In this document: positions 12,009-42,914 of the stretch, piece by piece
Position numbering within the stretch: the stretch's first letter is position 1
Layout of the letters: every line of letters starts with the position of its first letter
Source of the DNA: Anaerolinea thermophila
Lineage (GTDB): Bacteria; Chloroflexota; Anaerolineae; Anaerolineales; Villigracilaceae
Reading direction: 5' to 3'
Length of the DNA stretch: 42,914 nucleotides
Assembly: GCA_020722345.1 (NCBI GenBank)
Contig: DYKZ01000004.1
Coordinates: forward strand, 1 to 42,914
Notes under the pieces: generated by a model
The model's input: only the letters and a program-made list of their open reading frames with translations
Database searches by the model: none
What the model was told of the DNA's origin: nothing
Position numbers and translations under genes: made by a program

Positions 12009-12021
12009 GGAGGAAAAGCAT

Positions 12022-12766: not shown

Positions 12767-12781
12767 TCCGGAGGACGGACC

Positions 12782-14980: not shown

Positions 14981-14982
14981 CC

Positions 14983-15249
14983 ATGGCAAGACCCCAGGCG
15001 AGACTCGGCGATATCTCCAGTCACGGCGGCGTGATCGTCACCGGCGCGTTTCGTACCGTTGTCAACGGAAGGCCCGCGGCGCGGCTGGGCGATCTGCATG
15101 TCTGCCCGATACCGGGCCACGGCGTGACACCCATCGTTACGGGCAGCCTCGACACCGCGACCGAAGGACTGCCGAACGCCCGCATCGGCGACATCACGGC
15201 CTGCGGCGCGATCATCGTGACCGGCAGCCTGAACACGAATGACGACTGA
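14983..15249 (+). CDS. PAAR-motif spike tip protein
   Basis: RLGDISSHGGVIVTGAFRTVVNGRPAARLGDLHVCPIPGHGVTPIVTGS ... RIGDITACGAIIVTGS. Confidence 0.9.
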   Translation: MARPQARLGDISSHGGVIVTGAFRTVVNGRPAARLGDLHVCPIPGHGVTPIVTGSLDTATEGLPNARIGDITACGAIIVTGSLNTNDD

Positions 15250-15585: not shown

Positions 15586-16302
15586 CCTTCCATTGTCCTT
15601 CTGGGAAGTCGCTCCCTCTCTGATCCGGGAACCGTATCGGGAGACGGAACAAGCGGTCCCGGTGGCGGTCATCGGATCGCCCGGCGGCGAGGTGCGGTTC
15701 GAGTCCCTCCATCCGGAAATCGCCAGGGTCGAGAACGGTGTGCTTCGCTTCGGCGCGATACCCTGGGCAACGGTCATCGTGGCCGAGGCGATCCGGGACG
15801 AGGTGGTGTCATCCCGCAGATACATCCAGGTCGACGTGGAGAAGCCCAAAGCCGCGGCGGTGCTCGACTGGAGACCGTCCGGCTATGTGGAACTTCTGCC
15901 GGACGGAACCTGGCACTTTTACTATTTCTCCGGCTGGTACGACGTTTCCGGCAGCAATATCCGCGTGACCGGGGAGCTTGCATCGGAGGTGACCCTGGAC
16001 CGGGACTACCTCCTCCGCTTCGATGTCTTGGGCGAGATCGAGAGCGTGGACGGACCCTACTTCGACCGGCTCGAGTTCTATGTCGACTGGTGGTCTATGC
16101 GGAGCTTTAATCCGACTTACGACATGAACGGCGCTCCGCTGCAGCCGTACCCCGTTCCGCGAAGGACCGAGACCATCGACCTGTCTCAATTCACGGGCGG
16201 CACGGTCACGCTGCGGTTTCTTTGGGACACGGGTGACGGCCTTTACCAGAAGTCGACGGCTGGTTCGTGCAGAACATCGGACTCATACCTATCGGGAGTT
16301 GA
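15563..16302 (+). CDS. Ig-like plus jelly-roll-like tail protein, likely interrupted by a 1-nt frameshift
   Basis: N-terminal part parallels the preceding ORF (VRFESLHPEIARVENGVLRFGAIPWATVIVAEAIRD...RRYIQVDVE). The open frame runs to 16432, but the -1 frame from about 16252 gives VDGWFVQNIGLIPIGS* ending at 16302. Confidence 0.5.
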
Positions 16303-16308
16303 CGGAAC

Positions 16309-17253
16309 ATGGTTGTCGGAAACGGATACGGAGAAGAGGGCGGCGGGCCGATCATCGAACAGACCAGTTCGTCGCCCTCCCATTACGAGATCATGGCGCT
16401 GGTGCGTCTGCTTGCGGCCGGTCTCGGCGTGACGGACGGCGAGGGTGAGGAGACCTATCTCCAGCAGATTCGAGACAGCCTGGCCGAGATCAAAGGCATT
16501 CTGCAGCAGAGTCACGACGCCTCCGAAGCCCTTCGGGCGGAAGCTCAAACGGTACTGGAGGCGCACGCCGAGAGCGCGCAGCAATACATGCAGGTCGTGG
16601 ATCAACCGATGCCGCCGGACTTCGACCCCTTCGTCGCCATGCCGGCGGGCACCGCCGTGAGAGACCTCCCGGATGGAGGGCGGTTTTTCACCCTGGCCGA
16701 TGGCGTCATGGTTCGGGTGGAACCGGACGGAAGACTGACGGCCATCGGCATGGATGGCTCTGTGACCCCTCTCGAACCCGCGCGCGGCGGCGTGGTGACG
16801 CTTCCCGACGGCCGGGAACTTACGCTCAAGCCCGAAACGGTGCGGATGACCCATGAAGCGGCCGGGATCGAAGGGCTTCCCCTGGACATCGATCCGATAC
16901 AGACCGCGCAGGGGCGCTGCCGCGTGGAACTTCTGGGTGGTTACCGGCTGGATGTATTCCAGTCAGAGCGCACGGCCATGATCGGCAACCCCGCGGGCAC
17001 CTCGGTGGTGCTCGGTATTTCCCGGATCGAAGGCGTGGGTGAGGATGTCGAGGTTCGTCTGGTACCCGGCGGGGCCAAGGGCTTTACGGCCATGGAAAGC
17101 GGTCACAAAGGCGTCATCGAGGCCGACGGCACGATCCATGTCGCCATGGCGGGCGGGTTGGACCTGGTCATTCATTTCCCGGACGACGATGACTCCAATG
17201 GAGACCCAGGTTCCGGTGACCCGCCCGCCTGCATCTGCGAGGAGCGTGATTGA
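16309..17253 (+). CDS. Hypothetical tail-associated protein
   Basis: 314-aa ORF with codon-dense context between baseplate genes. Confidence 0.6.
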   Translation: MVVGNGYGEEGGGPIIEQTSSSPSHYEIMALVRLLAAGLGVTDGEGEETYLQQIRDSLAEIKGILQQSHDASEALRAEAQTVLEAHAESAQQYMQVVDQPMPPDFDPFVAMPAGTAVRDLPDGGRFFTLADGVMVRVEPDGRLTAIGMDGSVTPLEPARGGVVTLPDGRELTLKPETVRMTHEAAGIEGLPLDIDPIQTAQGRCRVELLGGYRLDVFQSERTAMIGNPAGTSVVLGISRIEGVGEDVEVRLVPGGAKGFTAMESGHKGVIEADGTIHVAMAGGLDLVIHFPDDDDSNGDPGSGDPPACICEERD

Positions 17254-17708
17254 TGGCCTTGGATTTTCTCGGACGCGGGCTGAAGTTCCCCTTCCGCTTT
17301 CAGCGGCGGTCCGGGGGCGCGCAGGTTTCCTCGGCCACCTCCACCGAGCATGAACACATCCACGAGAGCATCATCCAGATTCTTGGCACCCGGCCGGGCG
17401 AACGCTTCATGCGCCCGGAATTCGGCTCGAAACTCAAGGACCTGGTGTTCGAGCCGAACGACGAGGTGCTGAAGGGCCTGATCCGCCATTACGTGATCGA
17501 CGCCGTGAAACGCTGGGAGAAACGGGTCGTCATCACCGGCGTCTCCTTCGACGATTCCCCCTCGAACAAGGATCGCAATCTTCTCCCGGTCCGCATCGCC
17601 TATCGCGTCATCCGGAGCCAGGTGGAAGGCAACCTGGTTTATCCCTTCTACCGCGAACCGCGCCAATCCGCTCCGCCCCGACAGTTCCGCTCCGTCGCCG
17701 GTAAGTAA
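17253..17708 (+). CDS. gp25-like baseplate wedge protein
   Basis: HEHIHESIIQILGTRPGERFMRPEFGSKLKDLVFEPNDEVLKGLIRHYVIDAVKRWEKRV. Confidence 0.9.
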   Translation: MALDFLGRGLKFPFRFQRRSGGAQVSSATSTEHEHIHESIIQILGTRPGERFMRPEFGSKLKDLVFEPNDEVLKGLIRHYVIDAVKRWEKRVVITGVSFDDSPSNKDRNLLPVRIAYRVIRSQVEGNLVYPFYREPRQSAPPRQFRSVAGK

Positions 17709-17710
17709 CA
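17677..17710 (+). repeat. Dispersed ~34-bp element, copy C
   Basis: CCCGACAGTTCCGCTCCGTCGCCGGTAAGTAACA, overlapping the end of the gp25-like gene. Confidence 0.55.
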
Positions 17711-17775
17711 AGCGGGTCCTCGTCCGGCTCGTCCGGCGGGACCACTTGTGACCGAACCGCAACGGACGAACGGAA

Positions 17776-19182
17776 ATGGGCAGAGCGAGCATCGCTTACA
17801 CGAACAAGGACTACGACTCCCTGCGCCGGGAATTGCTGGCGCGGGTGCCGCAGCTCACCGACCGCTGGACGGACTTCAACGCGTCCGACCTCGGCGTGGT
17901 GTTGCTGGAACTCTTTTGCGGCATCGGCGACATGCTGGCCTACTACCTCGACGCCCAGGCGGCGGAGGCCTTCCTGCCCACCGCCCGCCAGCGGCAGAAC
18001 GTCATCAACCTCTGCAAGCTCATCAGCTACCGGCTCGACGGGCCGGTGGCCGCGACGACCGCTTTGCGATTTTCCCTGGCCGCGCCGCTCGAAGCGGACC
18101 TGGTGATCCCGGCGGGAACGACGTGCAGGGCCCGTCTGGAAGAAAACGACATCGTGTTCGAGACGGCCGAAGACGCGACGATCCCTCGGAGCCGGACGAG
18201 CGTCGATGCGGGCGCGCGCCAGGGGAAACGCAAGACCGAGACCTTCACGGCCCACGGGGAAACAGGCGATCCGATCATCCTGGCCGGAAAGGAAATCGCC
18301 CACGGGTCGATCCGTGTGTGGGTGCAGGACCAGGAATGGACCGAGGTATCCCACTTCCAGGAAAGCGGCTCCGACTCGCGCCACTTCATGGCCGAGACCG
18401 ACGCGCTGGACATCACCCGGATCGTCTTCGGCGACGGATTGCGCGGAGCGGTTCCCGACTCCGGCGCGGAAATCCGCGTCCAGTACCTCGAAACCCTCGG
18501 AGCCGAAGGCAACCTCGGTCCCAACCTCGTCACGGAGCTTCTCTCGCCCATCTACTTCGACGGCGGTCTGGTTCCGCTTGCGGTCACCAACCCGGTCCCG
18601 GCGACCGGCGGAGCGGACCGCGAGACGCTGGAACACGCCCGCCGACAGGCCCCGGCCGAGGTCCGCTCGCTCTGGAAGGCGGTCACCAAGGAGGACTACC
18701 TGGCCCTGGCCGAAGGGTTTCCCGGCGTGGCCAAAGCCCAGGTTCTCGACGTCAACGACAAGAACATCCGCTACTACCAGGTCAACCTGGCCGTGGCCCC
18801 GGACGGCGGCGGTCCGCCGTCGACGCTTCTCAAGCAGGACCTCGCCGGATACCTGGAATCGCGCAAGGTCATCACCGTCGAGATCAACCTTTTCGATCCC
18901 GTCTACCGGCCGGTCTCGATTGACGCGGAGGTGTTCGCCTATGCCGGCGAGGACCTCGACCTGGTTCGAAGCCGCGTCGAACAGGCCTTGGCGGACTTCT
19001 TCGCCTTCGACCGCATGAGCTTCGGCGCACCGGTCCACTACTCGGATCTGGTCGCGCTTCTGGACGGCGTGCGGGGCGTGAGCCACGTGCGCATGTACAC
19101 GCCGACCCAGGACGTCGACATCAGCGCCGGTCAGATCGCGGCGCTTGGTCAGGTCAACCTCGACGTGCGGAGGGCGTCCTGA
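17776..19182 (+). CDS. Baseplate J / gp47-like protein
   Basis: 468 aa: FNASDLGVVLLELFCGIGDMLAYYLDAQAAEAFLPTARQRQNVINLCKLISYRLDGPVAAT. Confidence 0.92.
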   Translation: MGRASIAYTNKDYDSLRRELLARVPQLTDRWTDFNASDLGVVLLELFCGIGDMLAYYLDAQAAEAFLPTARQRQNVINLCKLISYRLDGPVAATTALRFSLAAPLEADLVIPAGTTCRARLEENDIVFETAEDATIPRSRTSVDAGARQGKRKTETFTAHGETGDPIILAGKEIAHGSIRVWVQDQEWTEVSHFQESGSDSRHFMAETDALDITRIVFGDGLRGAVPDSGAEIRVQYLETLGAEGNLGPNLVTELLSPIYFDGGLVPLAVTNPVPATGGADRETLEHARRQAPAEVRSLWKAVTKEDYLALAEGFPGVAKAQVLDVNDKNIRYYQVNLAVAPDGGGPPSTLLKQDLAGYLESRKVITVEINLFDPVYRPVSIDAEVFAYAGEDLDLVRSRVEQALADFFAFDRMSFGAPVHYSDLVALLDGVRGVSHVRMYTPTQDVDISAGQIAALGQVNLDVRRAS

Positions 19183-20753
19183 TGTCCTCCTACTTCGAAA
19201 AGAAACTCATCGACCTCCTTCCGCCGCTCTACCGCGAACGGGATGAGTCCGGCGATCTGGAGACAATTCTCAAGGTCCCGGCCGCGAGCCTGGACGAACT
19301 CAAGGTACTGGCCGAGCGTTTCCCCGAGATCTTCGACGTTGGGCGTTGCGAGGAGAGGTTCCTGCCGTTTCTCGGCGGGATCGTCGGCCGCCGTTTCGAT
19401 CCCACCGTCGATGCTGCCGCCCAGCGCAGGCTTATCCGCGAGGCCATAGAGATTTACCGGCGCAAGAGCACCATTCCCGCCATCGGCCGTTCGCTCGTTG
19501 ACATCGGGTGGGAGGGGCGCATCGAAGAGACTTTCCATAAGGCGCTGCGCCTGAACCGCCGTTCGGTTGTCGGACGGTCGAAGCTTCCCGGGCTGATCTA
19601 CAGCCTGGGCGTCTACCGTATCGACAGCGACAACCTCGTCCAGGGAGTCCGGGATGCGCTGCCCTTCCATCATCCCGCGGGCACTCGGGTTTTCTTCCTG
19701 CAGTGGCTCTACACGCTCCTGTCCATGGAGTCGGATTTCGACGCGGTCATCAAGAAGGTCGTCGAGCGCGTGTGTCTCGGGCATCTGCACGAAACCTTCG
19801 TGGTCAACCACAACGCGCTGAACACGGATTACCACCTCACCCGCAAGAACAAGACCTGGGGTTGGTGGCGGATCACCGACGGCACCACACTCATGCAGGA
19901 CATCGAGCATGCCGCGGTGTGCGTCTCCCGCTGGCATGGCCGCTCGCCCCGGTTCCGCCTGAACACCGGCAACCTCAACGCCGAACGTCTGCCGAACCTG
20001 TGGATCAGCGAGCGGCGTGCGGCGTTCTGCTGCGAGATCGAAACCAAGCCCGTAGTGGAACCGGGCGTCTCCTTCATCCGGCTGGCGGGCCAGGAACTGA
20101 ATCGTTCGCGCCTGAATCGTTCCGCGCAGCCTTGCCGGATCAAGTTCCGCCAGAAAGACATGCTCTCGGAAGCCGTCCAGGATGCGCCCGACCTCGAGGG
20201 AGACCGCCGCACGCACCGGTACGGGAAGCGGTCGCGGCTCTCCCATTGGTTCCGCGTCGGGCATTCGAGGCTTGGAAGGTGCGACAAGGTCTCCGGCGCT
20301 GCCGTGGGCCGTCACCTCTTCATTACCGCTTACGCCGACGCTCAGTGGTCGGAGGTATCCGGCGCATGGGACATCGTCGACCGCTGGCGCGCCCGCAGGC
20401 CCGGCTTCTCCCTGAACAACAAGGCGCTCAACCTCGCCGAACTGACCGACGCCTATGTGACCGAGGCCCGCGCATCCTTCGAGATGGACGTGGACACGGG
20501 CATTCCGCGCCGAAGACGCGTGGAGACGCTCCTGCTCAACCGCCGCAGGCTGAACCACACTGGCTTGCTGTTATCGGTGGACCGGACCCGGCCCATGCGG
20601 CTCGGCTCGATGCCGCTCAACGGGTCGGGCTTCCGCAAGTCGAAGCCGTGCCTCCGCTGGCGCTACCGGCAGCGGGACGATCACGCCGAGGCGACCGCCG
20701 GTTTCGAGGCGGCGGCGAACCAGTACACAGTCACGCAATGGCCGACGGCATAG
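19182..20753 (+). CDS. Phage tail protein I-like
   Basis: N-terminal LIDLLPPLYRERDESGDLETILKV ... LPFLGGIVGRRFDPTVDAAAQRRLIREAIEIYRRKSTIPAIG. Confidence 0.85.
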   Translation: MSSYFEKKLIDLLPPLYRERDESGDLETILKVPAASLDELKVLAERFPEIFDVGRCEERFLPFLGGIVGRRFDPTVDAAAQRRLIREAIEIYRRKSTIPAIGRSLVDIGWEGRIEETFHKALRLNRRSVVGRSKLPGLIYSLGVYRIDSDNLVQGVRDALPFHHPAGTRVFFLQWLYTLLSMESDFDAVIKKVVERVCLGHLHETFVVNHNALNTDYHLTRKNKTWGWWRITDGTTLMQDIEHAAVCVSRWHGRSPRFRLNTGNLNAERLPNLWISERRAAFCCEIETKPVVEPGVSFIRLAGQELNRSRLNRSAQPCRIKFRQKDMLSEAVQDAPDLEGDRRTHRYGKRSRLSHWFRVGHSRLGRCDKVSGAAVGRHLFITAYADAQWSEVSGAWDIVDRWRARRPGFSLNNKALNLAELTDAYVTEARASFEMDVDTGIPRRRRVETLLLNRRRLNHTGLLLSVDRTRPMRLGSMPLNGSGFRKSKPCLRWRYRQRDDHAEATAGFEAAANQYTVTQWPTA

Positions 20754-20762
20754 GAGAGATCG

Positions 20763-21356
20763 ATGGCGATACATCTGTACGAAGACATCACATTGACCCA
20801 GAGGATATCCGAGGGCGACCTCGTGAATCCCGATGACGACACCTACAACGGCACGGACGGGGAAACGAAAGACAAGGAGCTGTTCGTAGCCAACGAACAG
20901 ACGATTCTCGCCGCGGCCCTGGCATCGGGGGCGACCTCCCTGCAGCTTTCCGCGCCTCTCTTCACCGACGGTGAAATCATCATCGTCGACAACGAACAGA
21001 TGCGCATCCTGAGCGGCGGCGGGACGACCGTCCTCGCGGTGGAACGCGGCTATGGCGGCACAACCCCGGCCGCCCATGATCCGGGTGCCGCGGTCTATTC
21101 CGGGTACGACTATACCGGGCTGGTGATCGAACCGGTGGATGTCGCTGGCGGCGACGAGTCGGATTGGTACACGGTGGCCCTGACCCAGGCGGGTCTCGGT
21201 AGCGCCGTCGGAGGCGCACCGCTCAACCTGGGCGACAAGGCGCACGACGTAACTCTCTCGTTCTGGCGTCGCTGCACGGTGCCGTCCGGAACGCCGGTGC
21301 AAAACAAAACCGACATCAAACTCCGGCTCACCGGTACGGAAAACCCGATCCTGTAG
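20763..21356 (+). CDS. Hypothetical tail-associated protein
   Basis: 197-aa ORF with an RBS, collinear with tail genes. Confidence 0.6.
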   Translation: MAIHLYEDITLTQRISEGDLVNPDDDTYNGTDGETKDKELFVANEQTILAAALASGATSLQLSAPLFTDGEIIIVDNEQMRILSGGGTTVLAVERGYGGTTPAAHDPGAAVYSGYDYTGLVIEPVDVAGGDESDWYTVALTQAGLGSAVGGAPLNLGDKAHDVTLSFWRRCTVPSGTPVQNKTDIKLRLTGTENPIL

Positions 21357-21365
21357 GAGGAACGT

Positions 21366-22352
21366 ATGGCCTATCACAGCACATCCGGGACCGCTTCAAA
21401 CACCGCGGATTTCCTCGTCCGCCTGAAAGATTTCCTCGTGGGAACGGTCGGCTGGACGCTTCGGGACGACCGCTCCGGCGACGCCGAGCCCAGCTACGTG
21501 CTGGCTTCCACGGGAGAGAGCGGAGCCGAAGACATCTTCCTCCGGTTCGTCAACGACGCCGCAGCCGACCGAATCGCGGTCCGCGCCTACCTGTACTGGG
21601 ATGCGGCGACACACGCGGGCGTGAAGGAGGCGTTCAACACCAGCTACACCTACATCAAGACCGTGGATGCTTCCGCCTTCCTGTATTGGATTTACGCGGA
21701 CATGGACCACGTCTTCATCGTGACCAAGGTCGTCGCCACCTACTACGGGCATTACAGCGGTCTGATCAAACGCTTCTGGTCAGGGGTGGTGGCGGTCACC
21801 CAGGCGGCGGCCGGACCCGGCGCGGACATCACGGTGCAGGTCAACGACGCCTCCATTTTCACGGTCGGCTTGAGCTACATCATTAAAAACGACGCCGGGA
21901 TCGAGCGCGTCCAGGTAACCGCCGTCGATACGATTTCCATCCCCAATACGGTCACGCTGGCGAACCTCGCAAACGCCTACGCGGTGGGAGCCAAGATCGG
22001 CGAAGATCCGCAGCCGGTCGTGGTCGGCCACTACCAGTCTCCGGGAAGTTTTTACGCGCTCAACAAGTTCGACGGCTGGGCGGGCGCGGCCGGACAGGCC
22101 GGATCGTGCGCCGCGGCCCACGGTAATTTTCACACCGCCGCCAATCCCGACCAACGTTACGGCTTGGTCACCATGTTCCCCTGGCTCGTCGCGCACACAA
22201 CCGCGGCCTACAAGGAACTACGCGGCGAGTTGATCGAGGTCTATGCCATCGGCAGCGGTGCGGCCGATTCGGAGGACGTGCTCACGTTAAACGGTGCCTC
22301 CTACAAGATTTTCAACCTGTCCGGGCCGGGCTGGTGCGCAGTGAAGGAATGA
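21366..22352 (+). CDS. Hypothetical phage tail protein
   Basis: 328 aa: MAYHSTSGTASNTADFLVRLKDFLVGTVGWTLRDD. Confidence 0.6.
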   Translation: MAYHSTSGTASNTADFLVRLKDFLVGTVGWTLRDDRSGDAEPSYVLASTGESGAEDIFLRFVNDAAADRIAVRAYLYWDAATHAGVKEAFNTSYTYIKTVDASAFLYWIYADMDHVFIVTKVVATYYGHYSGLIKRFWSGVVAVTQAAAGPGADITVQVNDASIFTVGLSYIIKNDAGIERVQVTAVDTISIPNTVTLANLANAYAVGAKIGEDPQPVVVGHYQSPGSFYALNKFDGWAGAAGQAGSCAAAHGNFHTAANPDQRYGLVTMFPWLVAHTTAAYKELRGELIEVYAIGSGAADSEDVLTLNGASYKIFNLSGPGWCAVKE

Positions 22353-28827: not shown

Positions 28828-28930
28828 GTCGAATTCACCTTGCTTTCTGTTCGGAAAGAAGCCTGTATGTGTGTGAACACAAGAGCCGATCCCTTGCCGG
28901 GAACGGGCTTACAGAACGCAAGGAGAGACC

Positions 28931-30001
28931 ATGGACTTACGCCGGATCAACTTCGGAATCGAGATCGAGACAGTCAAACGGACGCGCGAGCGGGTGGCCC
29001 AGGCGATCCAGTCGGTGGTGGGCGGCCAAGTCCGCCACATCGGCAGCCCGGGGAGCTTCGACCCCTGGGAAGTCACCGACGACCACGGCCGGGTCTGGAA
29101 AGTGGTATCCGACGGCTCGCTCATCAATGTGCCGGTCCACCTGCGGGCCGAGGTGGTGAGCCCCGTCCTGTCTTACGAGGACATCCCCGTCCTCCAGGAA
29201 GTCGTCCGGGCGCTGCGGGCCTGCGGAGCCAAGGTGGACGACCGTTGCGGCATCCACGTCCACGTCGACGCCACAGCCTTTGACGGCCGGACCCTCGCGA
29301 ACCTCGCCAAGATCGTCTACAAACAGGAAGCGCTCATTCTCACCGCTCTGGGCGTGAACGAGACACGCCGCCGCAACTACAGCAAACCAGTGAGCGACGA
29401 CCTCATTGCCCAGATCGAGCGCCGCCGTCCCAGGACCAGGGACCAGCTCAACCACATTTGGTACGGCTACCACAACCGGCAGCCCCAGCACTACGACAGC
29501 ACCCGCTACCACGGGGTGAACCTGCACAACGTCTGGTACCGGGGCACGGTCGAGTTCCGCTGGTTCGAAGGGACGCTCCACGCGGGCAAGGTGAAAGCCT
29601 ACGTACAACTGGTCCTGGCCGTGGCGGCCAAGGCGCTGAACGGCCGGGCCGCATCGAGCCGCAAGCGGTCCTTCGACCCGCAAAGCGCCCGGTACGACTT
29701 CCGGGTCTTCCTGCTCCACCTGGGGCTCATCGGTGATGAGTTCAAGACCGCGCGCAAGCATCTGATCGCCGCCCTGCCAGGGGACTCGGCATTCAAACGC
29801 GGCAGGGTGAAACCAAATGAACAACCCGCCGACAAGGCGGAACCCTTCACGGAGGCCGGGCCCGACAATCCGGCAGGACAGCCGGATTGGACGCGCCAAG
29901 GGCGCGCCCAAAGGGTGAGGGCCATGGACGGCCCGAGTCAAACCCGGCCTCCGGCTTTTTCGGGGGGCGAAACCGGCGGGGCTCAAGGAGGCGCGTCATG
30001 A
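28931..30001 (+). CDS. Amidoligase_2-family (COOH-NH2 ligase, glutamine synthetase-like fold)
   Basis: [60 protein letters not shown]. Confidence 0.88.
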
Positions 30002-30498
30002 GAGTGCTGATCCGAAACACCGCCCTCAATGGGCAGCCGCTGGAAGGCGACGGCGAAATCTTCACCGGGGCGACGGTGACCGACGTGGTCCTGGCCATGA
30101 AAGGAGCCACGCTCTTTTCCGACCAGCGGGACCTCGAGGATTACATCGACATGGTCCTGCGCAACGCCAAGATGCTGTCTGGCGTCGAGCTTACGGTCCG
30201 GGGCGATACGCCGGAGGAAAAGGCCGCATCCTTCCTGGATGCCCTGATCAAACACGGCCTTGCCGAGGTGCAGGACGACAAATCGGCCCGGATACCGATG
30301 CCCTCCCTGGTTTGGCAGGGCATCGACGCGGTCCGGCTCTCGGGGTTGACCAACATGCTCGACCGGCCGGTCGTCGCCCGGCTGGCCGGGGAGCTCGGCT
30401 GGCCCGACGCCGCGCACTGGATCGAAGAGCACCCGAAGGAATACGCCGAGGGCGTCTTCCGCGGATTCATCGTCGATCCGCAGGGAGGGAAACCCTGA
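29998..30498 (+). CDS. Conserved-looking hypothetical protein of the amidoligase cassette
   Basis: 166 aa, ATGA overlap with the amidoligase gene, GGAGG-type RBS; no family recognised. Confidence 0.65.
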
Positions 30499-31280
30499 TG
30501 TGCGGACTCGCGGGCGTCATCTTCGGAAAGAAGCGGCGGCGAGTCGAGGAGCGGGAGCACCTCGCCTGGCTCTTCACCCGCCTGCTGCTGCTGAGCGAGG
30601 AGCGCGGGCCCCATGCCACGGGCGCGGCATGGCTCGATGCCGACGGCGGCCACCGGCTCTTCAAATGTCCGGTGACGGCTGAGCGGTTCGTGACGGACAA
30701 GGCCTTCTCCGAACTCCTTGCCTCCATGGACAACCGCGCCACGCTCCTGCTCGGGCACACCCGTTGGCGCACCCGAGGGGACGAGCGGGTCAACAGCAAC
30801 AACCATCCGATCCGCGCCGGGGAGGTGATCGGCACCCACAACGGCACCATTTACAACGCAGACTACCTGTTCCGCCGCTGGAAGATGCGGCGCTTCGCCG
30901 AGGTGGACAGCGAGATTCTGTTCCGCCTGGCCGCGAACGCCGCACGGGACGGTGCCATGGATATCGAGCGGTTCAAGGCGCGGCTCCGCCGCTGCCGCGG
31001 GCAGATCACCGCCGTCATCGCCTGCCGGACCGACCCGGGCACCGTCTTTGTGCTCAAGGGGAACCGGCCGTTGGAACTGCGCTGGCATCCCCGCCGCAAA
31101 GCGGTTCTCTACGCTTCGGACCCCGCATACCTCGACGCCGTGCTGGCGGAGGAAAAAGGCTGGAGGGAGCTTCCGGTCCCGCCCATGAGCCTGGTGGTGT
31201 TCCGGCGCGAGGACCTGGCCGCGTATTCGGTGGAGCCCTTCGAGTTCGTCGCCCAGGAGAGAAAGGGCGCGGAGCCATGA
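30498..31280 (+). CDS. Class II glutamine amidotransferase (Ntn hydrolase)
   Basis: Cys2 N-terminus [59 protein letters not shown]. Confidence 0.92.
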   Translation: MCGLAGVIFGKKRRRVEEREHLAWLFTRLLLLSEERGPHATGAAWLDADGGHRLFKCPVTAERFVTDKAFSELLASMDNRATLLLGHTRWRTRGDERVNSNNHPIRAGEVIGTHNGTIYNADYLFRRWKMRRFAEVDSEILFRLAANAARDGAMDIERFKARLRRCRGQITAVIACRTDPGTVFVLKGNRPLELRWHPRRKAVLYASDPAYLDAVLAEEKGWRELPVPPMSLVVFRREDLAAYSVEPFEFVAQERKGAEP

Positions 31281-31885
31281 CAGACACTCCAATGAACCCC
31301 ATGAACCAGGCAATGAACCCAACAGAACCCTTGAAGCCGAACACAAACGGAATGTTGAGGCTCTTCGTCTACGGCACCCTGAAGCGCGGTTTCTGGAACC
31401 ACGACCGCTTCTGCCGGGGAGTCCTGGCGGTGGAGGACGCCTTGGTCCGCGGCCGCCTCTTCGAGACATCCTCCGGAATCCCGGTCCTGCAGGTCCCGGA
31501 GGAGGACATCCTCGCCGTCGGGACCACCGACCCGCTCGCCGACGTGGCCACCTGTCTGCGTGCGGAAACGCACAGGCAGGCACAAGCGCGCGTCGTGGCT
31601 CGCATGTCCAATCCCGAGCCAACCCCCGACCGGCTTCCGAAGAAGGGCACAGGCGCGCCCTGGGGCCCCGTGTACGGGGAGATTCTCACCTTCGACGATC
31701 CCGTGATCCGCCTCCCGGCCATCGACCGGCTGGAGGGGTTCCACCCCGGCGGTCCCTGCCTCTACCGCCGGGTCCTGGTCTCCGTCCGGGCAAACGGAGA
31801 GGTCCTCCCCGCTTGGCTCTATGTTGTTGATCTGACAGGATATCGAGGGTTGACGACGCTGCCGTCCGGCAAATGGCGTTCCTGA
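31277..31885 (+). CDS. Gamma-glutamylcyclotransferase (AIG2/GGCT-like)
   Basis: LRLFVYGTLKRGFWNHDRFCRGVLAVEDALVRGRLFETSSGIPVL; PVYGEILTFDDPVIRLPAIDRLEGFHPGGPCLYRRVLV. Confidence 0.92.
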   Translation: MTDTPMNPMNQAMNPTEPLKPNTNGMLRLFVYGTLKRGFWNHDRFCRGVLAVEDALVRGRLFETSSGIPVLQVPEEDILAVGTTDPLADVATCLRAETHRQAQARVVARMSNPEPTPDRLPKKGTGAPWGPVYGEILTFDDPVIRLPAIDRLEGFHPGGPCLYRRVLVSVRANGEVLPAWLYVVDLTGYRGLTTLPSGKWRS

Positions 31886-31956: not shown

Positions 31957-32001
31957 TCGGTCAAGGGCCGTGGTCTGCCATCCAGACAAGAGGTGCAGCG
32001 A

Positions 32002-32232
32002 ATGGACACAGAAGGTCGAAGTCTTTCGGCATTGGTAAAAGAGATACGACGTCAGCTTTCCTTGAGTCAGGAAGACCTGGCCCGGCAGCTCGGCGTCAGC
32101 TATGCGACCGTCAACCGATGGGAGAACGGTCTGTCCAAGCCTTCCAAGCTCGCAAAAGCCCAACTGGAGAGCTTTTGTAAGAAGATGACCAGTCAGGGCA
32201 AGTTGACACTTCCAGAGGGTGAGCGCAGATGA
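32002..32232 (+). CDS. XRE-family HTH regulator coupled to BREX
   Basis: 76 aa: LSLSQEDLARQLGVSYATVNRWENGLSKPSKLAKAQLE; ATGA overlap with brxE. Confidence 0.88.
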   Translation: MDTEGRSLSALVKEIRRQLSLSQEDLARQLGVSYATVNRWENGLSKPSKLAKAQLESFCKKMTSQGKLTLPEGERR

Positions 32233-32783
32233 CGAGAGAACACGAAAAGCAAAAACCGCCGTTGCCTCTTCTTGTTTTCCGCCTTCGCGCTTTGGTCCTC
32301 GCTCTCGGAGAGTCGACGGCCCCCGCGTGGTGGAAAACCGAGTTCATGAACGAGACCGGGTTGAGATTCCTGGAGCGGATTTATCCGAGGACATCATTTC
32401 AGGCCGCAATCCACGCCGCCGGGAAAGCCGCGTCAGACGCTCATGACCGCGCCGTCGGACGCGTCGGTGTGTACCACCTCTTCAGGTTACCCGAATCCCT
32501 GGAATCCGAACTCCATCGAATGCCTCCGGACCCGGCCGATGATTTCTTCCCGACATTGCGCAACGCCTTAGGGCGGCCGGGGGAGCTGATGAAATTGCTC
32601 GCACCGATGTGCGGCGGCGAGGGAGCGGACGCCGCTCCGGGAGCAAGAAAGATCGGCACCGACAAGGACATTATGACAACGGCGGGGATCAGGAAAACCG
32701 CCGCTGTTTACCATACGGCGTTTGCTCGGAATAAACCCGGCTTCCCCTATTTCACGGCCGTAACGGACGGAGGCCGTGGATGA
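32229..32783 (+). CDS. brxE: BREX protein BrxE
   Basis: 184 aa: LRALVLALGESTAPAWWKTEFMNETGLRFLERIYPRTSFQAAIHAA...GVYHLFRLPESLE, matching my recollection of the BrxE family; first core gene before brxA. Confidence 0.75.
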   Translation: MTREHEKQKPPLPLLVFRLRALVLALGESTAPAWWKTEFMNETGLRFLERIYPRTSFQAAIHAAGKAASDAHDRAVGRVGVYHLFRLPESLESELHRMPPDPADDFFPTLRNALGRPGELMKLLAPMCGGEGADAAPGARKIGTDKDIMTTAGIRKTAAVYHTAFARNKPGFPYFTAVTDGGRG

Positions 32784-33586
32784 CCATGACCATGGATAAA
32801 GAAGTACAGCGGAAATACTCGACCGCGATCAGCAAGGGTGCCGGAATGATTGAAGAGACCCGGCGTCTCCTCGAACAATGGCGTCCGGATGAACCGCTCG
32901 ATGACTTCACGCGCAGGGTCCAGGCTGAAGGGCTTCTCGGCAACTCCACCGCCTACAGAACCCGCGACGTCGTCAGGAGGGTGTTTGCACCGCGGTTCTT
33001 GAGACCGAGCGACAAGCCCGCACGGATTCTTCAAAGAGTGCTTGCATCAGGCCTGCCGGGGCGTGTTTTCACCGAACTCCTGTTCGTGTTTGCGGCGCGT
33101 CAGGACCCCCTGGTCTATGACTTCACGATACGTGAATACTGGCCCGCAGCCCGCAGGGGAAGACCCGTCATGGACACGGACCCGATGCTCTCCTTCCTGT
33201 CGGAAGCACATTACGACGGTCGGTTGGACAACCAGTGGTCGGAGAAGGTGTCGGTGCGCATCGCCCGCTGCGTTCTCGGTCTCCTGCGGGATGTCGGATT
33301 CCTCCGCGAAGTCGTCCGGGGCCGTAGGGAGATAGTCAACTACCGCATGTCGGACGAAGGGGCCGCGATCTTGGCCCGGGAACTCAATGAAGCGGGCGTG
33401 ACGGATTCTTCTCTGTGCGATCATCCCGATTGGGGGCTGTTTGGAATGACACCTTCCGAGGTAGTGGAGCGGCTGGACGGGATCGGGGAACACCGCGGGG
33501 TGATCGTTCAGCGCGCCGGTTCGGTCGTGCATTTCACCTGGGTCGTCAAATCCATTGAGGAGCTGATCGATGTACTCACTCGATAA
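32780..33586 (+). CDS. brxA: BREX protein BrxA (DUF1819)
   Basis: 268 aa: YSTAISKGAGMIEETRRLLEQWRPDEPLDDFTRRVQAEGLLGNSTAYRTRDVVRRVFAPRFL. Confidence 0.88.
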   Translation: MTMTMDKEVQRKYSTAISKGAGMIEETRRLLEQWRPDEPLDDFTRRVQAEGLLGNSTAYRTRDVVRRVFAPRFLRPSDKPARILQRVLASGLPGRVFTELLFVFAARQDPLVYDFTIREYWPAARRGRPVMDTDPMLSFLSEAHYDGRLDNQWSEKVSVRIARCVLGLLRDVGFLREVVRGRREIVNYRMSDEGAAILARELNEAGVTDSSLCDHPDWGLFGMTPSEVVERLDGIGEHRGVIVQRAGSVVHFTWVVKSIEELIDVLTR

Positions 33587-34136
33587 CGCATTCAACGAAC
33601 TGCTCGACAAAATCCGAGACCCCGACGCGCTCAACCCGGCCAAGAGCGACCCGGTTTTTTATTTCGCCTATCCGCCGGAATTGATGCTCGATCTTAAGAA
33701 GCATCTGCCGCGATGGACATCCAAGATAAAGGAGGCGGGCTTCGAAGTCCGCCGCGTTTCCCTTGCGGACATTCTTTGGGAAACGGTCGACAAGTCCGGC
33801 AGATGGGATATTTGGCTTGAACTGGAGGCCGACGCCGAGGCGGATCAGATTAATGAAGCGGTCCGCGACGTCCTCCGCCAGGGGAACACTCTGGTGGACC
33901 GGGTGGCGGAAGTGATCGAGTCGACCCCCGAAGGCACCGTCGTGCTGCTCACCGAGGCCGAGCTGCTTCACCCCTATTTCCGTACACGGACCATCGAGAG
34001 CCGATTGCACGACAAGGTCAAGACGCCGACGGTGATTTTCTATCCCGGCAGGCGGTCCGGCCAGTACGGTCTCCATTTCCTCGATTTTTACCCGGTCGAC
34101 GGCAACTACCGGTCGACGTTGCTTGGAGGTCTATGA
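33570..34136 (+). CDS. brxB: BREX protein BrxB (DUF1788)
   Basis: 188 aa: NPVFYFAYPPELMLDLKKHLPRW-like region, TVIFYPGRRSGQYGLHFLDFYPVDGNYRSTLL; follows brxA. Confidence 0.88.
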   Translation: MYSLDNAFNELLDKIRDPDALNPAKSDPVFYFAYPPELMLDLKKHLPRWTSKIKEAGFEVRRVSLADILWETVDKSGRWDIWLELEADAEADQINEAVRDVLRQGNTLVDRVAEVIESTPEGTVVLLTEAELLHPYFRTRTIESRLHDKVKTPTVIFYPGRRSGQYGLHFLDFYPVDGNYRSTLLGGL

Positions 34137-37100
34137 TGAGCGGAACGATTCGACAGGTATTTTCGCCCCGGCGGCCCATCGACCGGACCATTGAGAAAGT
34201 CATCGACTATTACGCCCAGGAGGAGGACCGCCTGGCGCGTGAGGTCGCCGAATACGAGGTTACGGACAATATCGAGTCCTGCTTCCGCAAGTTCCTCGAC
34301 GTTTTCGGCGAAGGCGTCAGGGGCGGTCAGGTGACCGAGGTCGGCATCTGGGTCTCCGGCTTTTACGGCAGCGGCAAGAGCTCGTTCACCAAATACCTCG
34401 GCGCGTCCCTCGATCCGACGCGCACAGTCGGCGGCAAGCCCTTCCTCGATCTTCTCTGCGACCGTTTCCCCCGCAACGAAATCCCGGCCGCACTGCGCAC
34501 CGTCTCCAAGAAACACCCCACGGCGGTGGTGCTGCTTGATCTCGGCGCGGAACAACTCGCCGAAAGCGCCGCCGCCCCGGTCTCCACCGTGCTTTATTGG
34601 AAGGTCCTTCAGTGGGCCGGTTTTTCCAAAGAGAAGAAGACGGCTCAACTCGAGTTCACGCTCGACCGCCACGGGAAGTACGGTGAGTTCAAGGACAAAT
34701 ACCGGCGGCGGTACAAGGGTGCATGGGAGGCAATACACAACGATCCATTGATCGGCGTAGCCCGCGCGGCGGAGATCGTGCCGGAGGTTCTGCCCGATGA
34801 TTTCCCAACGCCGGAGAGTTTCCGCGGCCTGCGCTTCGAGGAAGCCAGGGACGTCCGGGACCTGGCGCGTGAGATCATCGACATCTGCAGGCGCAAGACC
34901 GGGCATGAAAACATTCTGCTCCTTGTGGACGAGGCCGGTCAGTACGTCGCCCCCCGCGGCGAGTTGATCCTCAACCTCGACGGGCTGGCCCGCAATTTCA
35001 AGGAGCTCGGCAAAGGCAAGGTCTGGATCGCCGCCACCGGCCAACAGACTTTGAGCGAAATCGTCGAAAAGGCCGCGCACAACTCCGCGGAGCTCAACAA
35101 GCTGCGGGATCGTTTCCCGATTTCCATCCATCTCGACGCGAGCGACATCCGTGAGATCACACACCGGCGTCTGCTCGACAAATCCGAGGAGGGGCGGAAG
35201 AAACTGGAAGCCCTGTTCAAGGAGCACGGCCAATCCACGGTCACCCACACCCGCCTCTCCGGTACGGCCCTGTTCAAGGGCGACCCCGATTCGGGAACTT
35301 TCACGCGCCTCTATCCGTTCCTGCCGCAGCACTTCGATCTTCTGCTGGAACTCATCCGGACCCTCGCCCGATCCACCGGCGGCATCGGTCTGCGGTCGGC
35401 GATCCGCGTCATCCAGGACGTGCTGGTGGACAAGAGCCGTGTCCTCGGTGCCGACGCCGTCAAGCTCGCCGACCGGGAGATCGGCGCGCTCGCCTGCGTG
35501 GACGATTTCTACGACACCCTCCGCGCGGACATCGCCAAGGTCCTGCCCCATGTCATCGGCGGAGTGGAGAAGACGGCGAAGATCTTCGGGGTTGACTCCC
35601 TCGAAACACGCACGGCCAAGGCGGTCGCCGCCCTTCAACCCGTGGAGACCTTCCCCCGTACCGCGGAGAATCTTGCCGCTCTGCTCTATCGAAAAATCGG
35701 GTCTCCCGGGCTGCTTGACCAAGTGCGGGAGGCTCTCCGGAAAATCGCATCCGAAAAGGAATGCGGACTTATCGAGGACCCGCAGGCGGGCGGCTGGGTC
35801 TTTCTGAGCGACGCCGTCAAACCGATCCGCGACAAGCGCAACAGCTATGCGCCGACCTCAGGCGAATGCGCCCGGGCGAGGATCGACGTGCTCAAACAAG
35901 GCACGGCGGACCATGCCATGTTCCGGGTGCAGCCCGCCGCGAGGCTGGAGAACATCAAGGAAGTCAGGTCATCGGTCAAACTCGGCCGAACGCCGGTCGT
36001 AGGCGGCTCTGAAGATGTCGAGCTGCGTCTGGAATTCGTCGATCCGGCCCTCTGGGACGGCAAGCGGGCTGAATTCCTGGTCTCCACCAATACGCAGGTG
36101 GAGCTGAAGAACACTGTGGTCCTCCTGTTGAAAAACGACGACACCGTGGAGGAACTCCTTCCCGAAATCGTGCGCTCGGAAAAAGTTCTCGGCGACATCG
36201 ACGAGCGGGCGGCGGATCACGTTGTGGCCCAGTATCTGCGCGCCGAACGCCGGGCGGCCGAGCGCTGCCGTGAGCGGACGGCCGCCGCAATGGAAAAGGC
36301 GATGCTGGAAGGCGTCTTCATCTTCCGCGGCAAGCCGACCCCCGTCCGTGAAGCCGGCGAGACCCTGGACGCGGCTGTACGCTCGGTCCTGGCCGGAGCC
36401 GTCAAGGAAGTCTTCCCCCATTTCCATCTGGCCCCGATCCGGCCCTCTATGGACGCGGCCGCGAAGTTCCTCGGCGTGGAGCGCATGGACCGCATCACAA
36501 AGGACCTCGACCCTCTCGGCCTTGTGGTCAAAAGCAAGGGCGCTCCTCGAGTGGACACCGCGGCCCCGGTGCTCGCGGAGGTCATCAGGGTGTTCCGGAC
36601 CAAGACCGCCGAGTCCGGTTCCGGAAGGCTCCAGGGTTCCTATCTTCAGGATTTGTTTTCCGCGCCGCCCTATGGATGGACCAAAGACACCGTGCGGTAC
36701 CTGTTCGCGGCTCTCCTTCGCGCCGGAGAGATCGAGTTCCACGTCCCGGGCGCGGGCGGACCAGTGCGCACCGCCGGACCCCAGGCCGTGGAAGCCGTCA
36801 AGAGCACGGTCTCATTCAATAGAATCGGTATATCGTCCCGCGACGCCAAGTTGCCCCCCGAAGCTCTGGACAGGGCCGCCCGGCGTCTGGAAACCCTATT
36901 CGGCGACGAAGTCCTGCCGTTGGAAGACCACATCAGCCGCTCCGTCCGGCTGCACGTTCCCGACCTTCTGGAAAAACTCGGGGCTTTGCCCGACCGTCTG
37001 CGTCTCCTGAGCCTTCCCGGCGAGAGCCGTTGCCGGCGCCTGCTGGCCGACGCGGCCGATCTGCTGAAGGGCGACGCCGGCGGAGCTGCTTCGGTCCTCG

Positions 37101-37818
37101 GCGGTGTGGAATGTGCGCTGCCCGACGAGATCACCTGGGCCAAGGCTGTTTTCGACGCCCTCGAGTCCGGTGCGGAGGCCGACGTACGGAACGCCCGGTC
37201 GGTGCTGGATTCCTCGGCCGACCTGGAACGGCTCTTCCCCGGTTCCGTGAACGACCTCCTGAGCGACGAAGACAGGAGCGCGGCGGAGGAAGTGCTGTCG
37301 AGCGAAAGGTTCTTCGAACGGCTGCCCGAGCTGCGGGGCTTGGTCAGATCCGCCGTGGACCGCACGGAGAAGAGATATGCGGTCGACCGCGCCGCGTATG
37401 AAGACGACCTCAAGAAAGCCCTCACCGGGCTCGAAACGGAACCGGACTGGACGAAACTGCTGGACGAGGACCGCGGGGAGATCGCGGCCAAGCTTACATG
37501 CGATCTGCCGCCGACGGCCGAGAACGGCGACCCCGTAAGGCTGCTGCAGACCCTGTTGGTGCGCCGGCGGACCCTGCCGGGTTTGATCGAAGAGCTGAGA
37601 GCGGAAATCAAACGGAGACGCCCGGCCGAGCCAGAACCCGAACCGGTTCCCGAAGAGGGCGGCGAGCCGCCGGTCGAGGAGATCGTCGAAGCCGACGCTC
37701 TGGTGGAACCCGCCGTGATCACCACGGCGGCGGATTTGGATTCGTGGCTGGCGGGCATTCGGGAGAAGCTGGCCGGACTGTTGAAATCGAACAAGCGGAT
37801 ACGGATCAAGGGGCGCTC

Positions 37819-37822
<4 letters not shown>
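34133..37822 (+). CDS. brxC: BREX ATPase BrxC
   Basis: 1229 aa; IRQVFSPRRPIDRTIEKVIDYYAQEEDRL, Walker A GFYGSGKSSFTKYLG. Confidence 0.93.
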
Positions 37823-39857
<2,035 letters not shown>

Positions 39858-39861
<4 letters not shown>

Positions 39862-41540
39862 GGATCAAGCACATCGAAATAGAAAACTACCGTTCCATCA
39901 AGACGCTTGAATTAGACGTCCCTCAGGTCTGTGCCTTCGTGGGTCCGAATAACGCCGGAAAGAGCAATATTCTCACTGCAATTTACAAAGTGCTCGGTCG
40001 GGACTGGGTCACCGTCAACTCATTCGATCTTGACGACATCCACTGGCGCAACCCGGAAGCGGATATGAGAATAACCGTCACCTTCGACCCGCCCGTGGAG
40101 TACCGGCGCTTCAAACAAGCCGATCCGGTCAAGATACCAACGTTCTCCTTTGAATATACCCGATACAAGGTGGGGGAAAGCAAGGGAAAGCGAAGGCTGG
40201 AACAGAAATGCCTGGCACAAGACGGCAAGCCTCCGATGGTCTTGAAGAAGGCCCCTAAGAAAGGTGAAAAACATGAGTTTGAACCTCTGGTCAACATCCC
40301 GTCGGAAATCCGCGAGAGCGTTCCCCTGATTTATATCGGGACCAACCGCTCTTTGAAGGAGCAGCTCCCTTCAGCCCGTTATTCTCTGCTTCGACAACTT
40401 CTTGAGGATGTCAATCGTGACCTTCATGATCCTTCCCGGACCGTCACTGTCCCGGACGGCGAGGAGTCTGAAAGGCCCATGCCAAGGGCCGCTCGTTTCA
40501 GGGAACTCATGGAGAACGCCATGGAACTTCTGCGCACCGAATCGTTCGTTCAACTTGAGCAATCCATCAAAGAAAACGCCCTCCGCCAACTTGGTTTCGA
40601 TCCGGCGGTGGACGGCGACAACCTTGATCTTTACTTCTCTCCGTTCGACACGATGGACTTCTACAAAGCGCTCGACCTACGTGTGCGCGAGGGAGATTTC
40701 ACCATCAGCGCGACCGAACTCGGTGAAGGAATTCAAAACGCCTTGGTCCTGGCGATCCTTCAAGCGTTTGAAGCGCGCCGCAAGCAAGGCGCGATCCTAT
40801 TGATCGAAGAGCCGGAGATGTTCCTCCATCCGCAGATGCAACGCTCGCTCTACAAGACGCTCCGTGAAATCGGGAAGACCAATCAAGTCATTTACACCAC
40901 TCATTCTCCCCATTTCGTCGCCGTTCCGTATTATGACCAGGTGGCACTGGTTAGAAAGAACGATAACGGCACATGTGCAACGCTTTCGGATCTTCCGATG
41001 GATGATAAGCGGAAAGAGAAACTTTTGAAGGAACTCGATCCGGAACGGAATGAGTTGTTTTTCGCAACGCGGGTCCTCTTTGTCGAAGGGGATACGGAGA
41101 AACTCGCCTTTCCGGAATACGCACGTCGCTTGGGCCTCGACTTGGACAAGGCGGGCGCTTCCATCGTCGAGGTCGGCGGTAAGCGAAACCTGATCGAATT
41201 CTGTCGGATCGCAAGGTCCTTCAATATACCATTCGGCGTCGTCTATGACGAAGATTCACCGGAAATCAAAGACAAGAAAGAAGAAACGAATTACAACACG
41301 GAGCTGGACGCCCTCGGTGTCGATGGGAACCATTCGTGGCGCTTTACGAAAACTTATGAGGATGAATTAAAGACCGCAGTCGGCGGCGACACCGAATATC
41401 AGCGGATGTGTCAGAAGTATCCCAACACCGGCAAGCCGACGAGGGCCCGGCTCATCGCGGCCGATCCGACTACTGTTGTTCCTAAGAAAGTGAATGACAT
41501 CCTCATATGGCTGTCCGGGACCAAGGAGGCAGGCCTATGA
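39858..41540 (+). CDS. OLD-family ATPase with C-terminal TOPRIM nuclease domain
   Basis: 560 aa; Walker A GPNNAGKSNILTAI, Walker B ILLIEEPEMFLHPQMQ, YTTHSPHFV, TOPRIM VLFVEGDTEKLAFPEYARRLGL and VVYDEDSPEIKD. Confidence 0.9.
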
Positions 41541-42914
41541 CAAACACCCTCTTCATCCGCCTGCTCCACCATGAGGACAAGGGCGCGGCGCTGGCCGGGC
41601 GTATAACGGCGTTGCGCGAGGGCCGAGGCGACGGCGATGTCTATGCCGTCAATCCTGATTCCTTTCGGCAGGTGCCCAACACGCCGTTTTGCTATTGGGT
41701 GAGCGGACGCATCCGGCGGCTGTTCAAAGAACTGCCGCCCTTTGAAAGCGAAGGCCGGACTGTGAAACAGGGGTTGGCCACGGCCGACGATTTCCGCTTC
41801 GTGCGCGCCTGGTGGGAGGTGCCGGCGGAGAGGATTCTTGACGGTGGGCGGTATGCGGCAGGCGGTGAGCAGAAGGATGGGGAAGAAAAGTGGACCGAGG
41901 AGCGGATTCGGGATTTTCAGGCCTGGTGCCGGCGAAGAACCTACGAAGGCAAACGCTGGGTCCCCTTCGCCAAGGGCGGCGAATACTCCCCCTACTACGC
42001 CGACATCCACCTCGTCGTGAATTGGGCGAAGGAAGGGGCGGAGATACGGAACAACCTTAATGATAAAGGCGGTATTCGCTCAAATGTATGGATGCTCCGT
42101 GATACTGCTACGAACTACTTTTTCCGCCCCGGGCTGACGTGGCCGTTGCGCACGCAGCAATTTGGCACGCGCTCATTACCAGCGAGTTGCATTTTTGGAC
42201 ACAAGGGACCGGCAGCCTTCACGTCAACCGGCGATAACGGAGCACTGCTTTCATTGCTTTCACTCATGTTGTCCCGTCCTTTCGACATGCTGGTCGAGTT
42301 GAGTTTGAATGCCGCGGACAAGACCGCGCGCTCGTTCGAGGTCGGCATCCTCCAAGGAGTGCCTATCCCAGAGCTTACGCAGAATGGGCAGGCACGGCTG
42401 GCGAGATCGGCCCAGAGCACCTGGTCACTCAAGCGTTCTCTCGATTTGTTCGAGGAAGTCTCTCATGCCTGCACCCTACCGGCACTTCTTCAGGTTCAAG
42501 GTGAGACCATTACCGATCGAGCATCGGCCTATGAAAAGCAGGCTGCCGAAACTGAGGCGGGACTACGGAGAATCCAATCCGAGATTGACGAAATCATTTT
42601 CGATCTGTATGGGTTCATCGAGGAGGAGCGGAAGCCTACGGTCGGTAATCGGGGGCTGGTCGTCGCTGAGCAATCCGAAGAAGATGATTCCATTGGAGGG
42701 GAAGAAGCCATCGAAGCCGCGCCCGGTGAGAGCCGACCGCTGATCACCGCCCTTTTCCTTTCTTGGTGTGTCGGCGTTACGTTCGGCCGTTGGGACATCC
42801 GCATCGCCATTGACCCGTCGCTCGCGCCGAAACTTCCCGATCCCTTTGACCCGCTTCCTGTCTGCCCGCCGGGGATGCTGGTCGGGCCGGACGGCCTGCC
42901 GGCCGAACCGAACC
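41537..42914 (+). CDS. pglX: PglX C-terminal (specificity) half, runs off the window
   Basis: Open frame with no stop to the window end (hence not in the ORF track): MTNTLFIRLLHHEDKGAALAGRITALREGRGDGDVYAVNPDSFRQVPNTPFCYWVSGRIRRLF...NAADKTARSFEVGILQGVPIPEL. Confidence 0.8.
   Translation, partial: MTNTLFIRLLHHEDKGAALAGRITALREGRGDGDVYAVNPDSFRQVPNTPFCYWVSGRIRRLFKELPPFESEGRTVKQGLATADDFRFVRAWWEVPAERILDGGRYAAGGEQKDGEEKWTEERIRDFQAWCRRRTYEGKRWVPFAKGGEYSPYYADIHLVVNWAKEGAEIRNNLNDKGGIRSNVWMLRDTATNYFFRPGLTWPLRTQQFGTRSLPASCIFGHKGPAAFTSTGDNGALLSLLSLMLSRPFDMLVELSLNAADKTARSFEVGILQGVPIPELTQNGQARLARSAQSTWSLKRSLDLFEEVSHACTLPALLQVQGETITDRASAYEKQAAETEAGLRRIQSEIDEIIFDLYGFIEEERKPTVGNRGLVVAEQSEEDDSIGGEEAIEAAPGESRPLITALFLSWCVGVTFGRWDIRIAIDPSLAPKLPDPFDPLPVCPPGMLVGPDGLPAEPN

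Follow-up and report, generated by a model that had tools for sequence, protein, structure and literature searches.

The four-gene cassette described here very probably represents an accessory set of phage genes carried beside an exchangeable cargo slot. It is located on contig DYKZ01000004.1 of the Anaerolinea thermophila assembly GCA_020722345.1 (GTDB lineage Bacteria; Chloroflexota; Anaerolineae; Anaerolineales; Villigracilaceae), positions 1-42,914 of which were analysed on the forward strand and are referred to below as the window. Successive genes overlap by 4, 1 and 4 nt in gene order (Table 1), and the ORFs lie where the original prediction had placed them (i.e., on the plus strand with overlaps of 1-4 nt). 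The tail cluster and the BREX genes (BrxE, BrxA, BrxB, BrxC and PglX) that had been predicted upstream and downstream, respectively, were both real, and the window contig ends inside the BREX cargo. The arrangement was judged to be more than chance because the same gene order recurs in approximately 40 loci and because dN/dS values for the four genes, determined against ten relatives, were between 0.04 and 0.41 overall. Purifying selection acts on all four genes, with values of 0.07-0.23 for the ligase, 0.14-0.31 for the DUF5049 protein, 0.04-0.25 for the amidotransferase and 0.26-0.41 for the cyclotransferase, the least constrained of the four.

Table 1. Positions in the window of the predicted cassette genes, their leader and the flanking modules.
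Feature	Position	Strand	Description
Contractile tail module (sheath, tube, tape measure, baseplate, fibres)	2491-28717	+	Cassette-linked in relatives
Conserved cassette leader	28838-28930	+	Invariant block 28838-28882
Amidoligase_2 ligase gene	28931-30001	+	356 aa; Pfam 5.5e-64
DUF5049 small-protein gene	29998-30498	+	166 aa; Pfam DUF5049 2.4e-9, C-terminal half only
Class II glutamine amidotransferase gene	30498-31280	+	260 aa, MCG start; Pfam GATase_6 6.4e-18
Gamma-glutamylcyclotransferase gene	31277-31885	+	202 aa; Pfam GGACT/AIG2 7.2e-19
Exchangeable cargo: HTH regulator and BREX (BrxE, A, B, C, PglX, OLD-like ATPase)	31993-42914	+	

The product of the first gene matched the Amidoligase_2 profile (PF12224) at 216.8 bits against a cut-off of 22, with coverage of positions 2-244 of 245, and residues E11, E13, D61, E74, H109, H111, E133, R192, E208 and R210 were invariant among 45 diverse homologues. 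A search of PDB sequences with the ligase profile gave zero matches, and a fold search was used instead. The closest Foldseek matches of the structure model (pLDDT 87.6, pTM 0.81) were YbdK, the gamma-glutamylcysteine ligase part of GshF, gamma-glutamylmethylamide synthetase, glutamine synthetase and Dop, the best of which are enzymes that make gamma-glutamyl amides. The product is predicted from this model to be a carboxylate-amine ligase of the GS/gamma-glutamylcysteine-ligase fold, a fold whose members can also amidate carboxylates or modify proteins. It resembles the YbdK/gamma-glutamylcysteine ligase/glutamine synthetase superfamily in predicted fold and in residues of the metal-ligand type but differs from it by the low TM-scores of the matches (0.3-0.4) and by a phage-specific C-terminal helical extension, in which a GDEF motif region (residues 258-287) is invariant; approximately 50 C-terminal residues are predicted to be disordered.

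The second gene, originally of no assigned family, proved to encode two modules. A partial family was found for it, with a DUF5049 match in the C-terminal half (residues 105-151); the N-terminal module spans residues 1 to about 95. In many relatives the N-terminal module occurs on its own (about 80 aa), and in others the DUF5049 part is a separate ORF; no significant structural match to this protein was noted in the PDB or among viral models. The third product is by sequence a stand-alone class II (Ntn) glutamine amidotransferase domain, with Cys2 as nucleophile and with C2, R89, T92, N101, G116 and D137 conserved in 98-100% of 55 homologues; it aligned to GlmS (1xff) with retention of GlmS-type glutamine-site residues. 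In the fourth product, the YGTL motif (Y32-L35) was 97-100% conserved and E153 was 100% conserved among 46 homologues, and Glu153 aligned, in a weak pairwise match, with the catalytic Glu of human GGACT (3jub). Enzymes of the AIG2/GGACT family cleave gamma-glutamyl-amine bonds and release 5-oxoproline. Pfam matches bore out the amidoligase, GATase II and GGCT identities assigned from sequence by the original prediction, and the active-site residues, the loss of which had been named there as grounds for refutation, were kept.

Different cassette genes were retained to different extents among 72 non-redundant amidoligase loci with enough flank. A cyclotransferase-like ORF, counted by motif with Pfam confirmation in 6 of 6 loci tested, occurred at most 3.3 kb downstream in 53 of these loci, the small protein in 27 and the amidotransferase in 10. 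The amidotransferase is inessential, since it is absent in most loci. The ligase and cyclotransferase form the core chemistry, because the cyclotransferase is the usual partner and the pair is also found in other phages, and it is the chemistry of this pair that needs explanation. The survey thus picks the genes to test, i.e., the ligase and cyclotransferase, to which the small protein and the amidotransferase can be added.

As to substrate, direction and biological role, we infer the following scheme. The amidoligase would link an amine with a carboxylate, most probably the one at the gamma position of glutamate, at the expense of ATP, and the cyclotransferase would remove gamma-glutamyl groups and so trim or reverse the ligase product. 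The amidotransferase could provide ammonia from glutamine for the ligase, or a supply of glutamate, and the DUF5049 protein might serve as a dedicated partner, a specificity subunit or a substrate. The predicted ligase fold and AIG2/GGACT family chemistry support, short of proof, the action of a ligase and an eraser on one bond. Gamma-glutamyl ligase/cyclotransferase chemistry, in which glutamyl-type groups would be attached to and removed from a host molecule, is considered somewhat probable. The earlier description of the enzymes as a chemically coherent set with phage precedents was upheld, and their homologues were found to reside in phages rather than only in unrelated metabolic contexts, which had been offered as a second ground for refutation.

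Two other uses of such chemistry were weighed. Auxiliary metabolism, by which the cassette would boost nitrogen, glutathione-like or polyamine metabolism during infection, is suggested by enzyme names that suit gamma-glutamyl metabolism, by gamma-glutamylmethylamide synthetase among the structural matches of the ligase and by the nitrogen metabolism proposed for a similar cassette in Phage-ZRK32 (PMC10945688). This use appears improbable, however, in that strict ligase-cyclotransferase pairing, a dedicated small protein and a conserved leader resemble a specialised system, and in that making and degrading one bond would amount to futile metabolism. DNA hypermodification or anti-restriction, with an amino acid or amide added by the amidoligase to a modified base, would be in keeping with the DNA methyltransferase genes that neighbour the gut-phage homologue and with a large phage-encoded protein that matches the phage DNA methyltransferase family phrog_27806. 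Against this use, which is quite unlikely, the neighbourhoods read were free of annotated nucleotide hydroxymethylase, kinase, pyrophosphorylase or queuosine-type genes (as judged from annotations only), and the cyclotransferase would remove such groups rather than build them.

The nature of the element that carries the cassette was evident from its relatives. In most of the close relatives, tail genes g17776-g27404 lie upstream of the cassette in conserved order, as looked for in the neighbourhood survey originally proposed, and on longer contigs a tyrosine integrase (phrog_1), terminase, portal, DNA-methyltransferase-family protein, major head protein and neck protein are encoded further left. 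The window contig begins after the neck genes and ahead of the sheath, beyond the head-gene region; judged from the sequences of its relatives, the element appears to be a temperate contractile-tailed phage. A tailocin context, raised in the original prediction, and the related reading as an injection system were dropped once whole prophages with integrase, terminase, portal and capsid genes had been recovered in relatives that share the tail module.

Several features of these phages were noted apart from the cassette. A minus-strand HTH-ImmA/IrrE (M78) gene with a small downstream PIN-domain-like gene lies between the neck and sheath genes of the window (37-1553); this insertion, possibly a toxin-antitoxin or repressor insertion, is shared with elements G001 and G016 and was not seen there in the other elements read. 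In elements G006 (17948-21802, 1284 aa) and G017 (16154-18553, 799 aa), the match to phage DNA methyltransferase falls just before the major capsid gene, in proteins that by eye also have a head-protease-like region; the longer G006 version seems to contain two methyltransferase parts. A very large protein with a Mu gpF-like start and long extra regions follows the portal gene of G017 (10602-15194, 1530 aa).

Copies of the phage from different hosts were closely similar. Isolate copies from Desulfocarbo and Desulfobulbus were 98.4% identical over 20,973 bp and those from Desulfofustis (Desulfobacterota) and Ectothiorhodospira (Gammaproteobacteria) were 96.2% identical over 7,020 bp. The window was 92% identical over 11 kb to a 2.6 Mb scaffold of the uncultured Desulfobacterium TRIP AH-1, and its matches of 97% in a Desulfatitalea MAG and 96% in a Bacteroidales MAG could include binning errors. 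From these comparisons the phage appears to be nearly identical across phyla, and the isolate copies, unlike the MAG matches, are free of doubt as to binning. No amidoligase was found in 100 relatives of the host genome, no match was obtained in the plasmid collection searched, and attachment-site repeats of at least 16 nt were absent from the stretches examined. Since the right ends of the phages were not found in the elements examined, it is only from its position that we infer the cargo to lie inside the prophage.

The accessory status of the cassette was evident from phages that lack it. The cassette follows the tail fibre genes in most copies, and its place directly after them in nearly all members of the phage lineage would suit a virion role, namely chemical modification of the tail fibres or of another virion protein. 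Four members (G011a, G347, L205 and L209) nevertheless have intact tail genes and no cassette; the cassette is therefore accessory and is dispensable for having an intact tail module. Elements of the first survey were recruited through the amidoligase, with cassette absence under-sampled among them. In a viral search that used the fibre-region protein g23495 as query instead of the ligase, the cassette was present at 10 of 12 informative loci (absent in L205 and L209), and in a tail-protein search of one bacterial class it was present in 5 of 6 informative elements (absent in G347), fractions that are indicative only, some elements being shared between the searches. Where the cassette is missing, the fibres are followed directly by a small DNA-binding protein and a defence system. 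That the cassette is no tail part follows from homologues in other phages, which sit among early or terminase genes (i.e., those of Firmicutes, Pseudomonas and Arthrobacter phages adjoin terminase, DNA methyltransferase or replication genes); the cassette also has its own leader. Service to the virion, one of two roles asked about in the original prediction, is accordingly very unlikely.

The second of these roles, service to BREX defence, was addressed by comparison of the slot to the right of the cyclotransferase gene. BREX with BrxE, as in the window, was found after the cassette in L008 only. Another BREX type occupied the slot in L011 and a third in L016, L021, L045 and L094, with DUF6079-type BrxC in L025 (Dichelobacter nodosus), L038 and L040 and a BrxC/SspC-like protein in L028. 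Several type I restriction sets (L007, L018, L046, L059, L087, L089 and L230), an HmaA-type helicase (L009), C5 methyltransferases (L012 and L014), a methyltransferase (L024), PDC-M23B (L030) and ZorD-like and MzaB proteins (L092) were noted elsewhere. PADLOC family matches, to several system types, were obtained for 18 of 20 large slot proteins from 16 of 18 loci, and none for the slot proteins of L026 and L031; PADLOC methyltransferase profiles are broad, and the type I sets do include neighbouring specificity or restriction genes. Large ORFs were taken for this test, and the evidently different slots of L013 (metabolic) and of L019, L020, L022 and L233 (efflux) were left out. The latter four hold a TetR regulator, outer-membrane lipoprotein, RND efflux and patatin-like set common to different Desulfobacterota. 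The slot is a defence hotspot whose position is constant in this lineage of contractile prophages, and BREX, given the many different defence systems found there, is swappable cargo. The cassette thus marks a site where this phage lineage exchanges whole defence systems.

Cassette and BREX are adjacent and co-oriented in the window and have the same order in L008, as might be expected if the cassette supplied an accessory defence component to BrxE-PglX. Cassette and BREX are nevertheless separated by an HTH gene that has a promoter-like site of its own, other loci carry type I restriction, Hma, C5 methyltransferases, efflux genes or a different BREX type in the slot, and L209, L205 and G011a keep a defence system there with no cassette. 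Constant association with BREX core genes was not found, and the cassette as a BREX component, already largely refuted by this swapping, was ruled out by the slot comparison across loci as extremely improbable.

Nucleotide similarity between phages tends to break at the cyclotransferase gene; the recombination that exchanges cargo may therefore enter this gene. Between the window and L007 or L009, identity was approximately 95% in the three other cassette genes and 72-73% in the cyclotransferase gene. Within the cargo of the window (37819-41540), a PglX-like methyltransferase of 680 aa is overlapped at its end by the following OLD-like ATPase/TOPRIM gene (likely start near 39855), which points either to a frameshift or to a BREX variant whose PglX is short or split. 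In Dichelobacter nodosus VPI 2340 (L025/L188), a BrxC-type protein (PDLC02482, E=0) follows the cassette and a tmRNA gene lies on the same contig; the vrl locus, known to integrate in ssrA (PMC2593044), may be related.

Upstream of the ligase gene, approximately 45 nt were invariant even where the protein was only 78% identical. A long stem is predicted between CCTTGC (28838-28843) and GCAAGG (28918-28923), covering the Shine-Dalgarno sequence AAGGAG (28920-28925), so that the 5' arm of the leader would pair with the Shine-Dalgarno region. The pattern TTGCTT-N(17-20)-TGTATGT, with at most 2 mismatches, was present in 33 of 169 leaders (related sequences counted separately) as opposed to 0.3 expected in shuffled leaders. 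RNAalifold gave no pairs on a MAFFT alignment of Firmicutes-type leaders, in which the arms were misaligned, and was replaced by an alignment-free arm-swap test. In this test of 55 dissimilar leaders, own arms paired better with their own ribosome-site regions than did arms taken from other leaders (z = -7.6, 0 of 20,000 permutations), while shifted arms gave -0.5 to -3.7 except at +/-10 nt; the signal was kept in both the low-GC (-6.0) and the high-GC (-3.6) half. The 5' arm thus covaries with the ribosome-binding region. The structure is not universal, since z values for individual folds were about -3 in the group of the window, -3 to -6 in the Firmicutes-type group and near 0 in others; little or none of it was seen in the L018 and ADurb.Bin236 groups. 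Spacing of -35-like and -10-like sequences is also compatible with a promoter and operator, and the leader is either a structured RNA or a promoter with an operator whose 5' arm would stay untranscribed. No credible Rfam match was noted for the leader of the window or of L126, and the exact 43-nt leader was absent from viral contigs. In some loci of Myxococcota and of the Firmicutes type, the element also precedes other genes; as TTGCTW...(GA)GAGYSNNTATGT it lies upstream of several other genes in L060 (8562, 12196), L148 (6939, 10226, 10771), L149, L048 and L066 and resembles a phage-wide regulatory sequence.

Taken together, the cassette is very probably a 'moron' of a temperate contractile phage. 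It has its own leader, comes after the genes for the tail fibres and opens a cargo region that has an interchangeable defence system as its distal part. The enzymes may modify a small amine or a peptide of the host envelope, either in the lysogen or at an early stage of infection, and might thereby alter susceptibility to competing phages. A superinfection-type role is favoured, at low confidence, because an accessory module with its own leader lies beside defence cargo in a temperate phage; taken by itself, this step is doubtful, and the explanation that omits it is modestly probable. Host-surface change or superinfection exclusion has been proposed for similar cassettes (PMC5498523, PMC10580990), and, as far as could be found, the literature holds no experimental test of superinfection exclusion by amidoligase/AIG2 phage cassettes. 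On the fullest reading, which is unlikely as a whole, the pair would itself act as a prophage anti-phage system, placing gamma-glutamyl groups reversibly on a host amine or on a peptide of the envelope; it would be under the control of a structured 5' leader of a new class and would form the first defence-cargo module of a phylum-crossing phage. The covarying leader may reveal what the system senses, and cultured bacteria from different phyla, which carry near-identical copies, offer an experimental host.

Likeness to known systems was partial in each case. P2/P4-type prophages have defence hotspots, which likewise place interchangeable defence systems at one fixed prophage site; the cassette slot differs in phage lineage, in its position at the tail fibre/amidoligase end and in its large systems (BREX, type I restriction). 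The start-associated sequences (ESAS) of cluster K mycobacteriophages are also short, conserved inverted-repeat elements upstream of phage start codons, as is the leader, which in some relatives of the window phage is repeated before several genes; the leader differs from them in sequence and hosts and occurs only once in the window. Gut Firmicutes phages (Ca. Heliusvirales; phrog_2443, phrog_2520) encode an amidoligase of the same subfamily, approximately 35-42% identical, with a gamma-glutamyl cyclotransferase; their loci differ in that no amidotransferase was detected and in that the pair adjoins DNA methyltransferase and terminase genes. Phage amidoligase/AIG2 cassettes have reportedly been under discussion since 2009, and in that year Iyer et al. 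are said to have predicted a podovirus 'peptidoglycan modification' cassette. Cassettes so named are described in RIO-1/PSA-HP1, phiEco32 and LUZ24-like podoviruses (PMC5498523, PMC3890496, PMC10580990). The RIO-1/LUZ24 type likewise combines Amidoligase_2, class II glutamine amidotransferase and AIG2/GGCT in one phage operon, as part of a larger gene set that in LUZ24-like phages lies among early genes, but includes a second COOH-NH2 ligase (PF14395) and an ATP-grasp/RimK-like enzyme, neither of which is present in the window cassette (compared with phiIBB-PAA2 orf20-26). The window type, in contrast, has an extra DUF5049 protein and a conserved leader and belongs to a temperate contractile phage, in which it lies at the end of the tail module beside a defence slot rather than among replication genes. 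Relative to known phage cassettes, it is therefore distinguished by a smaller gene set, a new partner protein, a new phage context and a new leader candidate.
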